Shown here in pieces: positions 12,278 through 18,763 of a DNA stretch of 64,000 nucleotides. Within the stretch, counting starts at the first letter, position 1, and every line of letters starts with the position of its first letter. Below the pieces are notes generated by a model that saw only the letters and a program-made list of their open reading frames with translations, made no database searches and was not told the origin of the DNA. The DNA comes from Fusobacterium varium (lineage in GTDB: Bacteria > Fusobacteriota > Fusobacteriia > Fusobacteriales > Fusobacteriaceae), in contig LR134390.1 in the NCBI GenBank assembly GCA_900637705.1, forward strand, positions 930,001 to 994,000, read 5' to 3'. Made by a program: the position numbers and the translations under genes.

Positions 12278-12658
12278 TTAATATATTGCTTCTTGTTTGA
12301 TTATTTTATTATATGCAACAATAACTTTACTCCATTTTTCAAATTTATTTTTTACAACTTCCAATGTAAGTCTTTCTTCAGAGAGTGCAATCAGATGAAA
12401 AAGAACAAATCCAGCTGTGTCAGCCCAATGAATATTATAACCTTTCAAATCAAAATTAAAGAATGTTTCTGTTAATTTATCTTTTATTTTTTTTGCTGAG
12501 TAGTTAGGAGAGTGATAATCTACATCAATGAGTTCTTCTCCCCAAATATTAGAAGTTAACTGCCATTTATATATAGATTTTTGCTCTATTTTTATAGTGT
12601 AGTAATCTTTTTCCTGCCAATCAGTGAATCTAACTTCAAACTCTTTCATTACAGCCAT
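12278..12658 (-). CDS. Conserved-looking hypothetical protein, 126 residues
   Basis: A soluble protein starting MAVMKEFEVRFTDWQEKDYYTIKIEQKSIYKW, with no signal peptide or membrane segment. An AGGAGG site precedes the ATG on the minus strand. The N-terminal half looks like alternating beta strands and the C-terminal half is helical. I do not recognise the family. It has its own terminator and a long AT-rich upstream gap, so it is probably monocistronic. Confidence 0.7.
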   Translation of the reverse strand: MAVMKEFEVRFTDWQEKDYYTIKIEQKSIYKWQLTSNIWGEELIDVDYHSPNYSAKKIKDKLTETFFNFDLKGYNIHWADTAGFVLFHLIALSEERLTLEVVKNKFEKWSKVIVAYNKIIKQEAIY

Positions 12659-13014
12659 AATCCCACCTCCTGTTAATATTTATATACTTCATAAATTATG
12701 TTCTGTCAATTATAAATTTATAAATATTCAATATAGTAAAGGCATTATTTTTGCCAGAAATTTCTTAAAAATATAATAATAAAATAGTTAGGAAATCTTT
12801 TTACTGTAAAAAATATTTTTAATGGAATAAGTTTTTTTATATTCAAAAATTATTATAATAAACATTTAGATATTTTCTTTAAAAAATTTAAAAATAATTT
12901 CTTAGGGAGTGTATTATTTCAGAATGAAAAAAAAAGGTTTATATTTTTAAGAAAAGAGGTATTATATATAAGGGGAAATTGTCTATATATAGTTTAGTGA
13001 TGAAAGGAAAATTG
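12659..13014. other. AT-rich divergent intergenic region
   Basis: 356 bases between a minus-strand gene and the helicase operon. Composition is almost entirely A and T. I see no ORF, clear palindrome or convincing -35/-10 pair, although promoters for both directions must lie here. Confidence 0.5.
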
Positions 13015-15496
13015 ATGGATATAAATGAAAAAATATCTCTAAATGCAAGAGAAATAATGAAAATTGAAATAGAGGAAGCTGGAGGGAATGAGGTATTTTT
13101 TAGGGGAATTCCAGATGAAAATGGAATAGTCACAGAAGTAGAAGTACTTGCAAGAGGAAATAAGTATTCTGTACCAGCAATAATAAAAGCAATGAAAAAA
13201 GGAGAGGTCTTGATTCATAATCACCCCTCTGGTTTTTTATACCCATCTGATGCAGATGTGGAAATAGCTTCTATGTATTCTAATAGAATGGCAGGAGCTT
13301 CATATATTGTAAATAACGGTTTGACAGATATCTATGTGATTGTAGAGCTTTTTTCAGATAATAATGTTAAGATAGATATAACACCATATTTTGAAAAAAC
13401 AGGGTTATTATCTCAAACTTTCAAAGGATTTGAATATAGAGATGAGCAGTTACATATGGCAAAACATATAGAAAATGGGTTAAATGATGAAAAAAAAGTA
13501 ATAGTTGAAGCTGGAACTGGAACTGGAAAGACTTTGGCTTATCTTATTCCAAGTGTAGAATGGGCTATTAAAAATAAAAAAGAGTAGTAATTTCAACTAA
13601 TACAATAAATCTTCAAGAGCAACTTTTAAATAAAGATATTCCAATAGCTAAAAAAGTAGTACAAGGAGATTTCAGATATATTCTTGTAAAAGGAAGGGGA
13701 AATTATCTTTGCAATAGAAAATATTTTAATCTTGCTTTGGGAGAAAATGTAAACTTTGAAGAATTTTCAAACTCACAAAAAACGCAGTTTAAGGAGATAA
13801 TAATCTGGGGAAAAAAGACTGAAAAAGGAGATAAATCTGAACTTCCTTTTGAAGTAGACAACAGTGTATGGGAATTATTTCAAAGTGAAACAGATATTTG
13901 TGCAGGAGCAAAGTGTCCATATAAAGGGGAATGTTTTTTCTTAAAATCTCGTGAAGAAAAGAAAAATGCAGATATACTTATAACAAATCATCATATGTAT
14001 TTCTCTGATTTAGCTATCAGAAAGGAAATAGGATTTAATACAGAGTATTCAATACTTCCAGAATATGGATTAGTAGTATTTGATGAGGCACATAATATAG
14101 AAAAAGTTGCAAGGGATTATTTTTCTTATGAAGCTTCAAAGTATAGTTTTACAAAGATAATGAATCAAATATTTGCAACAGAAGGAAAGAAAAAAATACA
14201 GGAAGTCTGGATATATTATTGAATTATATAAAAAATACATCTTTAGACAGTAGAAATATTTTAGAAAAAGAAATCAAAGAGATAAAAATAAAACATAAAT
14301 CTTTATTTTTAGAAGGAAGAGAATATTTTAACCATATAATAGAAGTATTTTCAAAAGGGCAAATGGGAACATTTACATTTAGAGCTAAAAAAGAAGAAAT
14401 GGAACATTCTCCTTTTCTTAGCAGTCTTATTGATTTCAGAGAAAAATTTACTTCTGAGTATAATTCATATATGAGAAAAGTAAGAAGCTTAATAAAAGAA
14501 ATAAGAGATGAAGAAGATGAACAGGGAACTATAAATGATTTTATAAAGTATACAGACAGGCTGGAAAACTTTTTCAATAATTTTAGATTTATAAATGATT
14601 TTGATGATGAAGAATTTATCTATTGGATAGAAGTAAACAGCAGAAAAAGTAATTCAAAACTTGTTGCCACACCTCTTAAAATAGATAATGAACTTCAGAA
14701 AAATCTATATATTAATTTAAAGCAGATAATATTTACATCTGCAACTATTGCTATAGGGAGTGATTTTTCATATTTTAAAGAATCTATAGGACTGGAGGAA
14801 GATACACTGGATAAAGTTATACATTCTCCATTTGACTATGATAAACAGATGAAAGTATATATTCCAGATGATATTCCTAATCCTTCTGATAGAAATTTTG
14901 TAGATGAAATTTCAGAATTTCTGAAAGCTTTATTAATTAAATCAAAAGGAAAGACTTTTGTCTTGTTTACCTCATATTCAGCATTAAATTATGTTTATTA
15001 TTTGCTGAGAGATGATTTAGAAGCTAATGGAATAGAACTATATATTCATGGAATGGCACCAAGAACTCACTTGGTAAATATGTATATAAATGGTAGAAAT
15101 CCTGTTCTTTTTGGGACAGACTCTTTTTGGGAGGGTGTAGATATAAAGGGAAAACAATTAAGTTCAGTAATAATAGTAAAGCTTCCTTTTAAAGTTCCAA
15201 GCGACCCTGTAACTGAAGCTATAATAGAAAATATAACAGCTCAAGGGAAAAACTCTTTTATAGAATATCAGATACCAGAGGCTGTAATAAAATTCAAGCA
15301 GGGAATAGGACGTTTGATAAGAAGTAAAACCGATCATGGAACTGTTACTATATTGGATAATAGAGTTATTAATAAGAGGTATGGAAAATATTTTATGGAA
15401 TCTATTCCAACTAGAAATATTAGAATTGTGGGAAAATCGGCTGTCTTAAAAGATATAGAAGCTGACATCAAAGGTGGTTACAATGAAGAAATTTAA
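13015..15496 (+). CDS. dinG: DinG-type DNA helicase with N-terminal JAMM domain, frameshifted twice
   Basis: Reconstructed length 827 residues. Residues 1-105 contain the JAMM metal motif H68-N-H70-P-S-G with S78 and D81 (H-x-H-x7-S-x2-D) and upstream Glu26, as in RadC/MPN proteins. The rest is an XPD/DinG superfamily 2 helicase: Walker A AGTGTGKT (about 166), four Cys for an iron-sulfur cluster (LCNRKYF, then DICAGAKCPYKGEC), VFDEAHN (about 352) and the QGIGRLIR motif near 765. Breaks: one base lost in the A run 13576-13581 and one at 14202-14205. The start is ATG 13015 behind AAAGGA. The usual Firmicute DinG has an exonuclease domain here instead. It overlaps the next gene by 14 bases. Confidence 0.85.
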
Positions 15497-17554
15497 TTTA
15501 TTTGGCTTGAAATTTATGTTTGAAATAAAAAAAAGTGATAGAAATGATGCAGAGATATATTCGAGCTCATACAGTTTAAGAGAAAAGGTTTTATATCTTG
15601 TTCTTGTAATGTTTGTTATTGCTTTTAGTTCAAAGATATCACTACTGTCACGTAATAATAATTACAAAGTAGGAGATGTGGTAATTTCAGATATATATGC
15701 TCCTAAAACTATAGTTTTTAGAGATCAAAGTGCCAAAGAAAAAATAATAGAGGAAATGATATTAAAATCAGGAAAAGAATATATTTATTCTGCTGATGCA
15801 GGAAGAATATACCTTGAAACTTTTGATGATTTTTTTAATGACATTTATTCTATGAAAGAAAAAGATCATAATGAAATAGACTTTAAAAGTTTAGAGAAAA
15901 ATACTGGTAGAAAAATATCTGAAAATATGATACAAGAAATACTTCGTTTAGATGTAAAAGAGATAAAAAAATTACAAAAGGAAACAAGAAGTTTTCTGGA
16001 AGCTCTTTATGAGAACGGAATTGTACAGGAAAAATCAATTATTAAGTATAATTCTCCATATGATGAGAAAATAAAAAAACTTCCAGAGTTGAGAAAGCAA
16101 GTAGTTGAAACATTTGTAACTCCAAATTACATCTATGATGAAGAGAAAACTAAAAGATCTCTACAAGAAAAAGTTTCTCAAATAAATGATCAATATATAG
16201 AAATCAAAGCAGGAACATTAGTAGGAAAAAAGGTGAAATTCTTAATGAAAGAAGAATAAAAATTTTAGAGGCTTGTGGGGTGTACTCTTATAAAAGGAGT
16301 ACAGCTATAATACTGGCTAATCTTACATATCTTTTTATAATAGCCACATTATTTTATACAGTGATATTTAATAAATGTAAAAAGGAAATATTAAATAAAA
16401 GTTATTACAGAAGTGTTTTTTTAATAATAACAGCATTTTTCTTAATATTTAGATTTATAAATAATGATTTGATTTATCTGGTACCTATTGATACAGCATT
16501 ATTTCTATTGATATTATTGACAAATACAAGGTATGCAACTCTCATGTTTTCATTTATGATGATGTTTTTGCTGCCTATTATTGACTATGACCTTATGTTC
16601 CTTGTGGTATATGTAGCTTCTTTGTCATTTGGAGCATACTTGGTAAAAAAAGTAAATACAAGGGCAGGATTAATAGCTGTAGGAATTCAGCTTTCTATTT
16701 TGAAAATAGCATTGTTCCTTTTATTAAGTGCATTTTCTCAGGTGGAAACATTTGGAGCAGCTTTAAAATCAGGTGAAATGGTATTAGCTGGATTGATTTC
16801 AGGAATGATAACAATAGCTCTTTTACCTTATTTTGAAAAGACATTTAATATACTAACTCTTTTCAAATTATTGGAGTTAGGAGATCTTTCTCACCCATTA
16901 TTGAAAAAATTATCTATGGAAGCACCAGGGACATTTCATCATTCTATGATGGTTGCAACTTTATCTGAAAATGCAGCAACAGCAATAGGAGCAAATGCAA
17001 TTTTTACAAGAGTAGCTTCCTATTATCACGATATAGGTAAATGTAAAAGACCAAAATTTTATGTAGAAAATCAACAGAATGGAGAAAATCCACATAATAA
17101 AGTTTCGCCATTTATGAGTAATTTAATAATAACATCTCATACAAAAGATGGAGCAGAAATGGCAAAACAATATCAAATTCCTAAGGAAATAAGAGATATA
17201 ATGTATGAACATCAAGGAACTACATTCTTGGCATATTTTTATAATAAAGCTAAAAGTCTTGATCCAAGTGTAACCAAGGAAGAATTCAGATATAGTGGAC
17301 CTAAGCCAAGAACAAAAGAATCTGCAATTATTATGCTGGCTGATTCTATAGAGGCAGCTATTAGATCAATAGATGATAAAACACCAAGAGCTATGGAAGA
17401 AATGATTAGAAAGATAATAAGTAGTAAAATAGAAGATAATCAACTTTCAGAAGCAGACTTAACATTTAAAGAGATAGAAATAATTATTCAGACATTTATA
17501 AAATCACTTATAAGTATACACCATGTAAGAATAAAATATCCAGGTCAAAAATAA
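15483..17554 (+). CDS. pgpH: PgpH-type 7TM-HD phosphodiesterase (c-di-AMP), frameshifted once
   Basis: Reconstructed length 690 residues. A first membrane segment (about 27-45) leads to an extracytoplasmic 7TMR-HDED domain (about 55-255), then seven membrane segments (about 265-455) and a cytoplasmic HD domain (about 475-640) with FHHSMM, SYYHDIGK and later His/Asp residues. In Listeria PgpH and Bacillus relatives this domain hydrolyses cyclic di-AMP; the substrate here is inferred. One base is lost in the A run 16226-16231. The start is ATG 15483 inside the end of dinG; ybeY and dgkA follow, a gene order common to Firmicutes and Fusobacteria. Confidence 0.88.
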
Positions 17555-17578: not shown

Positions 17579-18046
17579 ATGGATTTAGTTGTAGATATAT
17601 CTCTAGAAATAGAAGGATATAGTAGCCTTATTAATGAAGAGGAAATGAAAAAATATATAAAAGAAGCCCTTGAAAGTGAATTTGAAAGTGACAGACCAGT
17701 ATATCTTTCACTACTTTTTACAGGAAATGAAGAGATACAAGTAATAAATAAGCAGTATAGAGGAAAAGATCAGCCAACAGATGTTATATCTTTTGCATAT
17801 CATGAAACAGAAGATTTTGATATTGGTCCATATGATACTCTTGGAGATATAGTTATTTCTATGGAGAGAGTAGAGGAACAGGCTGCTGAATACAATCATT
17901 CTCCTAAAAGAGAATTGTATTATGTACTGACTCATGGATTACTTCATTTACTGGGATATGATCATATAGAGGAAGATGATAAAAAAGAGATGCGTGCAAG
18001 AGAAGAAGAAATACTTGGACAATTTGGCTATACAAGAGAGATGTGA
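17579..18046 (+). CDS. ybeY: Endoribonuclease YbeY, rRNA maturation factor
   Basis: 155 residues, typical size. It takes part in 16S rRNA 3'-end maturation and ribosome quality control in the cytoplasm. The metal site HGLLHLLGYDH is complete near residue 122, and the TDVISFAY segment (about 63-70) is the second family signature. AAGGAG lies just before the ATG. It sits 24 bases after pgpH and 4 bases before dgkA, so it is translated in one operon with both. Confidence 0.95.
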   Translation: MDLVVDISLEIEGYSSLINEEEMKKYIKEALESEFESDRPVYLSLLFTGNEEIQVINKQYRGKDQPTDVISFAYHETEDFDIGPYDTLGDIVISMERVEEQAAEYNHSPKRELYYVLTHGLLHLLGYDHIEEDDKKEMRAREEEILGQFGYTREM

Positions 18047-18050
18047 TATT

Positions 18051-18763
18051 ATGGAAAAAAATTGGAAGAAACAAGGAATTACAGAAAGTTTTAACGCAGC
18101 TTTTGAAGGCTTATTTGAAGCTATAAGAAGTGAAAGACATATGAAGTTTCACTGTTTCTGTACAATAATAGTTCTTATATTGTCATTGTTTTTGGAACTT
18201 GGAAAATATGAAACTCTTTCTTTGATAATAAGTATAACTTTAATGTGGATAGCAGAACTTTTTAATACAGCAATAGAAAGCTGTGTAGATATGGTAACTG
18301 AAGAATACCACCCTTTGGCAAAACGTGCAAAAGATATAGCAGCAAGTGCTGTATTGGTTACAGCTCTTAATGCACTTCTTGTAGGGTATATAATCTTTGA
18401 AAAAAAGATAACCTTTCAATTGAGAAGCGCCTTTTATATATTTAAAAGCTCATATCAGCATACGGCATTATCTATTTTTGTCATTATAATAATAATTGTA
18501 ATTTGTTTAAAACTTTTATTTAAAAAAGGAACTCCTTTAAGAGGTGGAATACCAAGTGGGCATAGTGCTCTTGCAAGTTCCATATTCACAATAATTACAT
18601 TTTAACAAATAATCCTAAAATATTTTTTCTTTCTTTAATACTAGTAGTACTTGTAATGCATTCAAGAATAGAAGGGAAAATACATACTCTTTTTGAAACT
18701 GTTATAGGAGCTTTTTTAGGTTGGGGAGTTACTTATCTGATATTGTTACTTTTAAAAATGTAG
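18051..18763 (+). CDS. Diacylglycerol/undecaprenol kinase fused to PAP2 phosphatase, frameshifted once
   Basis: Reconstructed length 237 residues. Residues 1-125 are a DgkA-type kinase with three membrane helices and the motif AELFNTAIESCVDMVTEEYH; Gram-positive members phosphorylate undecaprenol. The C-terminal part is PAP2: K...R then GGIPSGHSALASS and, after the break, HSRIEGKIHTLFETVIGAFLG. The two activities add and remove a phosphate on a lipid, suggesting undecaprenyl phosphate recycling. One base is lost in the T run 18600-18603; without it the kinase would end at 18605. It starts 4 bases after ybeY. Confidence 0.85.

Follow-up and report, generated by a model that had tools for sequence, protein, structure and literature searches.

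What is a metalloprotease-like domain doing at the front of a DNA helicase? The question is raised by a gene in a 64,000-nucleotide stretch of the Fusobacterium varium genome (assembly GCA_900637705.1, contig LR134390.1, positions 930,001 to 994,000; hereafter the window, in whose coordinates positions are given). Here, a RadC-like JAB/JAMM domain precedes a DinG-type iron-sulfur helicase. We find that this RadC-DinG combination is real, ancient, and widespread. An earlier sequence-only reading of this DNA was right to place a JAMM-like domain akin to RadC ahead of the helicase, as the conserved motif and the predicted fold bear out, but it implied that the fusion was new. RadC-DinG/RAD3 fusions had already been noted, with an argument for a role in nucleic acid processing (Iyer 2017, PMC5512222). 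In a later paper (Cheng 2025, PMC11981726), 'RadC-like DinG' is defined and named, an AlphaFold3 model places zinc at the same E/H/H/D residues, and the family is said to have had no research. The architecture is thus known; what is new here is its distribution across Fusobacteriota, Desulfuromonadia, and further phyla, together with natural loss of the site. The window protein is almost certainly an ortholog of the RadC-like DinG family.

The metal site is where it had been reported. In the frame starting at the ATG at 13015, an H-x-H-x7-S-x2-D motif spans residues 68 to 81 (HNHPSGFLYPSDAD) and a glutamate stands at residue 26, so that the catalytic E, H, H, and D set of RadC-like DinG is present as E26, H68, H70, and D81. 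The motif occurs once in the whole window, with 0.025 occurrences expected from composition shuffles (31,673 six-frame residues in segments of at least 60 amino acids). These shuffles, together with conservation in relatives, rule out a chance motif. The Pfam RadC model (PF04002) scores 24.4 bits (cut-off 22.1) over a RadC-like JAB stretch at residues 57 to 88. Prok-JAB (PF14464) has no match in the genome, the domain scoring as a RadC-type JAB instead. Pfam found no UPF0758_N or helix-hairpin-helix (HhH) region; the RadC JAB stretch alone precedes the helicase. A separate canonical RadC is encoded elsewhere in the same genome.

The helicase, which had been called complete, is not so in this assembly. 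Three open reading frames (12979 to 13587, 13737 to 14222, and 14219 to 15496) make up one helicase gene, broken near 13580 and 14190. The call of a DinG helicase stands for the three pieces combined, which carry the helicase motifs, but not for a single complete frame. Following the RadC-like JAB stretch, the Pfam order is DEAD, DEAD_2, Helicase_C_2, and the motor motifs AGTGTGKT, DEAH, and QxxGRxxR are present and conserved, as are four iron-sulfur cysteines. In NCBIfam, the pieces score among the YoaA/DinG helicases; against the YoaA equivalog model (cut-off 680 bits) they reach 67, 180, and 321 bits, each scored separately. Each break comes down to a single-base gap within an A run, a gap that three congeners do not have; in the genus, relatives keep the frame open over about 820 to 905 amino acids. 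The next genes show similar single-base gaps near 16225, 18600, 19010, and 19481. Because the congeners are intact and the neighboring genes are gapped likewise, the breaks look like errors of assembly, not biology. The gaps between 12950 and 21000 are probably uncorrected long-read errors, and other apparent pseudogenes in this genome therefore deserve suspicion. Across that interval, the DinG gene, the 7TM-HD hydrolase gene, the DgkA-PAP2 gene, and a lipase-like gene are broken consecutively, several of the breaks lying beside A/T runs. Could the gene as a whole be an artefact, that is, a chance motif or a pseudogene? The two frame breaks would fit, but this is highly improbable given the long open frames in the genus's other genomes with a match, and given that the breaks are single-base gaps in A/T runs, a kind of gap that recurs in the genes next door.

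Structure prediction supports a JAMM-type domain. AlphaFold2 models the window N-domain, from a 71-sequence alignment, with a JAMM/RadC fold (predicted local distance difference test, pLDDT, 89.4). In this model, E26 lies on the first strand, the histidine pair ends strand 65 to 69, and S78 and D81 stand at the start of helix 79 to 92. The best PDB matches by Foldseek are RadC (2QLC; E = 2.3e-5), BubCD, CSN5, and Rpn11, and realignment gave Z scores of 10.2 for Rpn11, 9.9 for BubCD, 9.6 for RadC, and 9.3 for AfJAMM. By sequence profile, RadC 2QLC is the sole confident match (E = 1.5e-7), with AfJAMM marginal, and hhalign gives 96% probability against a RadC. Predicted fold and E/H/H/S/D set together qualify the domain as of JAMM/MPN+ type. 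For the whole protein, modeling relied on intact orthologs. The full-length F. mortiferum ortholog (pLDDT 89.4; predicted template modeling score 0.86) has a predicted Superfamily 2 motor with Arch and iron-sulfur domains; in the PDB, the model matches E. coli DinG bound to single-stranded DNA best (6FWR; E = 1.8e-40).

Two rival functions bear directly on this fold. The main rival casts the RadC-like domain as a metal-dependent nuclease, or another nucleic acid– or nucleotide-processing domain, that replaces the exonuclease of other DinG proteins. ExoDinG and EndoDinG do have nucleases at the same N-terminal position, and the aligned core is compact (about 104 model residues within about 133 of Rpn11), with long insertions of the deubiquitinase (DUB) type not apparent. 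However, the site is that of a JAMM peptidase, serine included; the top PDB matches listed are JAMM/MPN proteins; and a DALI search with the RadC-like domain in Cheng 2025 (PMC11981726) returned metalloproteases and zero nucleases. We consider a nuclease rather unlikely, though a serious contender. Alternatively, the domain could release ubiquitin-like proteins from their conjugates, in the manner of BubCD-type and other bacterial JAMM enzymes, with the helicase delivering it to DNA. The presence of BubCD and Rpn11 among the best fold matches would agree with this, but ubiquitin-like, E1, and E2 genes do not recur in the multi-locus neighbor clusters (judged by eye and in part Pfam-scanned), and RadC-type JAB domains are argued to lack a groove for the ubiquitin tail (Iyer 2017, PMC5512222), which together make it very unlikely.

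Relatives of the gene were found in 94 of 98 Fusobacteriota genomes. The N-domain alignment held 76 sequences (75 relatives, found by whole-domain similarity, and the window), and E26, H68, H70, S78, and D81 are all kept in 69 of the 75 relatives. In the other six, E26, R47, N49, H68, N69, H70, S72, and G73 are all replaced, with P77 and S78 retained. These site-dead relatives come from three genomes of genus g21 and three of genus g4, and H68 has become Arg or Lys in both lineages (L063 to L065 and L066 to L068; N-terminal 110 residues). All six retain Walker A, DEAH, and the iron-sulfur cysteines, and the five with a frame long enough to cover motif VI have it too. Note that eleven genomes have the helicase with no JAB domain at all. 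In a helicase tree built with a quick method (SH-aLRT support), the site-dead six fall in two places, as do the domain-less helicases. A domain-less pair from genus g6 and the degenerate g4 trio are sister groups (support 100), a placement suggesting that in this clade the site decayed first and the domain was deleted afterward. The exact placement of the domain-less f4 group, which sits deep in the tree with a long branch, is unsure.

Domain-less helicases of g6 and g27 occupy the PgpH-YbeY-DgkA locus of the intact orthologs. The domain was thus lost in place, and a different paralog is ruled out for these two genera; for three other domain-less genomes (G064, G082, and G091), the PgpH, YbeY, and DgkA neighbors were not found within the stretch examined. 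A separate canonical RadC is kept in nearly all Fusobacteriota, including lineages whose DinG lacks the domain, which rules out the DinG-borne domain as a replacement of canonical RadC. Because the site residues vanish together in two lineages that keep the helicase motifs, and the domain is absent elsewhere, the metal site acts like a catalytic unit that can be parted from the helicase motor. The six relatives with a domain but no metal ligands could instead point to a noncatalytic platform for DNA or partner binding, like the MPN-minus proteins, and the MPN subunit of EMC is a good fold match. Such a platform is nevertheless unlikely, since every other member examined, across many phyla, retains the ligands, and the loss is of all residues together rather than by drift.

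Beyond Fusobacteriota, a scan of 84,980 species genomes found relatives encoded in at least 390 stretches; the scan used the motif, and motif conservation among its loci is therefore biased. The best 80 of these at least 390 stretches come from Fusobacteriota, Desulfuromonadales, other deltaproteobacterial groups, Halanaerobium, Spirochaetota, Calditrichota/KSB1, Hydrogenedentota, Nitrospinota, Dadabacteria, Dependentiae, and an Acidimicrobiia bin (organisms named by record titles; mostly metagenome bins). Walker A lies in the same open frame as the N-domain in 79 of the 80, the exception (L112) ending at a contig end. The E/H/H/S/D set is found in 71 sequences of a second alignment (A2), a count that is partly biased, as loci were found through the motif. 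A less biased sample came from Desulfuromonadia, the class of one Desulfuromonadales genome, in which N-domains were selected independently of the motif. All 117 genomes sampled from this class match, most across the full length, and all five site residues are present in each of the 19 readable N-domains (20 fragments; L198 unreadable). Conservation of the motif, proposed earlier as a check on the idea, therefore holds both within and outside the phylum. The fusion is near-universal in the sampled Fusobacteriota and Desulfuromonadia and present in several further phyla.

From its sequence and modeled fold, the JAMM domain would bind zinc and act as a hydrolase. We tentatively favor protein cutting on DNA, by a peptidase or isopeptidase activity, because JAB domains characterized biochemically are peptidases (PMC5512222), because the site is kept with its serine, and because there is a eukaryotic precedent: FANCJ, an XPD-family iron-sulfur helicase, unfolds DNA-bound proteins for cleavage by SPRTN (PMC12279946). 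The helicase would move along single-stranded DNA until it met a protein bound covalently or tightly, and would exert a pull on it, while the JAMM domain would cleave that protein at a peptide or isopeptide bond, making one polypeptide the counterpart of the FANCJ helicase and SPRTN protease pair. We also count for protein cutting the base-excision or nucleotide-pool genes found among some neighbors outside Fusobacteriota: an AP-endonuclease-family gene and a dUTPase gene in Halanaerobium, and an HhH-GPD glycosylase gene near some Desulfuromonadales-type loci. Canonical RadC is another neighbor at some loci of the latter type. The conserved E/H/H/S/D set, the fold matches to JAMM peptidases, the joint loss of site residues in two lineages that keep the helicase motifs, and the lack of HolC in the genome are likewise counted for this mechanism. 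A doubtful extension is that one bacterial protein, spread across many phyla, unfolds DNA-bound proteins and also cleaves them, its helicase and JAMM protease serving together against DNA-protein crosslinks. If true, it would give the RadC-type JAB domain its first substrate class.

Several points weigh against protein cutting. The domain has been lost in some lineages, so its activity is dispensable there. The probable lack of a ubiquitin-tail groove counts here too, and RadC-type JAB domains are argued to occupy the positions of nucleases in other proteins (PMC5512222). No biochemistry of RadC-like DinG or of RadC was found in PMC5512222 and PMC11981726. No neighbor is conserved across phyla, and the neighbors point to no substrate. 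The link to repair through RadC, to which the sequence-only reading had appealed, is weak, since a repair role for RadC itself is in dispute (PMC5512222 and PMC11981726). The function of the RadC-type JAB has long been open, and in this protein such a domain is joined in cis to a helicase whose type is known. Orthologs form a natural series of intact, site-dead, and domain-less versions, several of them sharing one chromosomal locus, so that what the RadC-type site cuts is directly testable by comparison.

The gene is followed in many Fusobacteriota by genes for a 7TM-HD hydrolase, YbeY, and DgkA-PAP2. A mobile or defense element is unsupported: the order in Fusobacteriota is mostly a housekeeping one, the phylum stands apart in the helicase tree, and there is no cross-phylum neighbor. 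Features are collected in the table. Upstream, a 126–amino acid open reading frame on the minus strand (12278 to 12658) has no Pfam match. Just outside the window, a RadC-profile match of 13.7 bits, below the cut-off, lies inside a 536–amino acid open frame (G000:C1:997385-997465). RadC JAB domains also occur in larger frames (about 875 and about 667 amino acids) at G004:C20:14365, G005:C84:7376, and G006:C3:109440, and at G028:C2:4960 and C3:5084; these are possibly polyvalent proteins of mobile elements.

Table. Features of the RadC-like DinG gene and its downstream neighbors, in window coordinates.
Feature	Position	Strand	Basis or remark
N-terminal RadC-like JAB/JAMM domain (residues 1-136)	13015..13422	+	Pfam RadC, AlphaFold2, PDB matches; VIA Z ~10
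E26, equivalent of the JAMM general-base glutamate	13090..13092	+	69/69 intact-site relatives; lost with His pair in 6
R47-G48-N49 conserved loop	13153..13161	+	R47, N49 gone with metal ligands in both degenerate lineages
H68-N69-H70 (H68, H70 predicted zinc ligands)	13216..13224	+	aligns with RadC 2QLC HNHPSG and AfJAMM HSHPS
S78, predicted oxyanion serine; D81, predicted third zinc ligand	13246..13257	+	S78 76/76, D81 74/76 Fusobacteriota sequences
Walker A AGTGTGKT, motor domain 1	13510..13533	+	sequence; conserved in relatives
First frame break, single-base gap in A run	13575..13590	+	relatives have intact copies
Four iron-sulfur cysteines (codons 13710, 13899, 13914, 13932)	13710..13934	+	alignment A3 columns C233, C296, C301, C307
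DEAH box	14082..14093	+	sequence
Second frame break, single-base gap in A run	14185..14222	+	open reading frame list; congener comparison
Remaining helicase: Arch and motor domain 2, Helicase_C_2	14219..15496	+	PF13307, 161 bits
7TM-HD hydrolase (PgpH-type), downstream	15474..17554	+	frequent next gene in Fusobacteriota; broken once here
YbeY endoribonuclease and DgkA-PAP2	17579..18605	+	remainder of conserved gene order

How does this protein compare with known systems? With RadC-like DinG, whose type example is from Desulfuromonas soudanensis, it shares the domain order, the E/H/H/D site, the iron-sulfur domain, and the YoaA-like motor. HolC (PF04364), with which the related helicase YoaA pairs, has no homolog in the F. 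varium genome, which rules out a YoaA-HolC pairing, and it is likewise missing from the genome in Cheng 2025. We see no difference in kind from that family; the main text of the paper leaves out Fusobacteria, and the passages covered do not describe natural site loss. Intact orthologs in the genus are one-protein fusions of a RadC-like JAB and a DinG motor, with the window copy frame-broken. Canonical RadC (UPF0758; 2QLC), the best sequence and Foldseek match, shares the JAB fold and the HNHPSG...PS..D motif, but the window protein lacks the N-terminal HhH/UPF0758_N region, is fused to a helicase, and has an LARGN loop in place of the RadC HPRE. ExoDinG (S. aureus DinG; 9II8, 8ZEF), E. coli DinG (6FWR), and YoaA share the motor domains, Arch, and iron-sulfur domain, whereas their N-terminus is an exonuclease or no domain. 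AfJAMM, Rpn11, and BubCD have the fold and the E/H/H/S/D catalytic set in common with the window domain, which differs in being compact, with no evident DUB insertions and no ubiquitin-like partner identified. FANCJ and SPRTN of eukaryotes would act alike, coupling an XPD-family iron-sulfur helicase to a metalloprotease on a DNA-bound protein; they are, however, two proteins with an unrelated protease fold, and the likeness is one of analogy, not membership.
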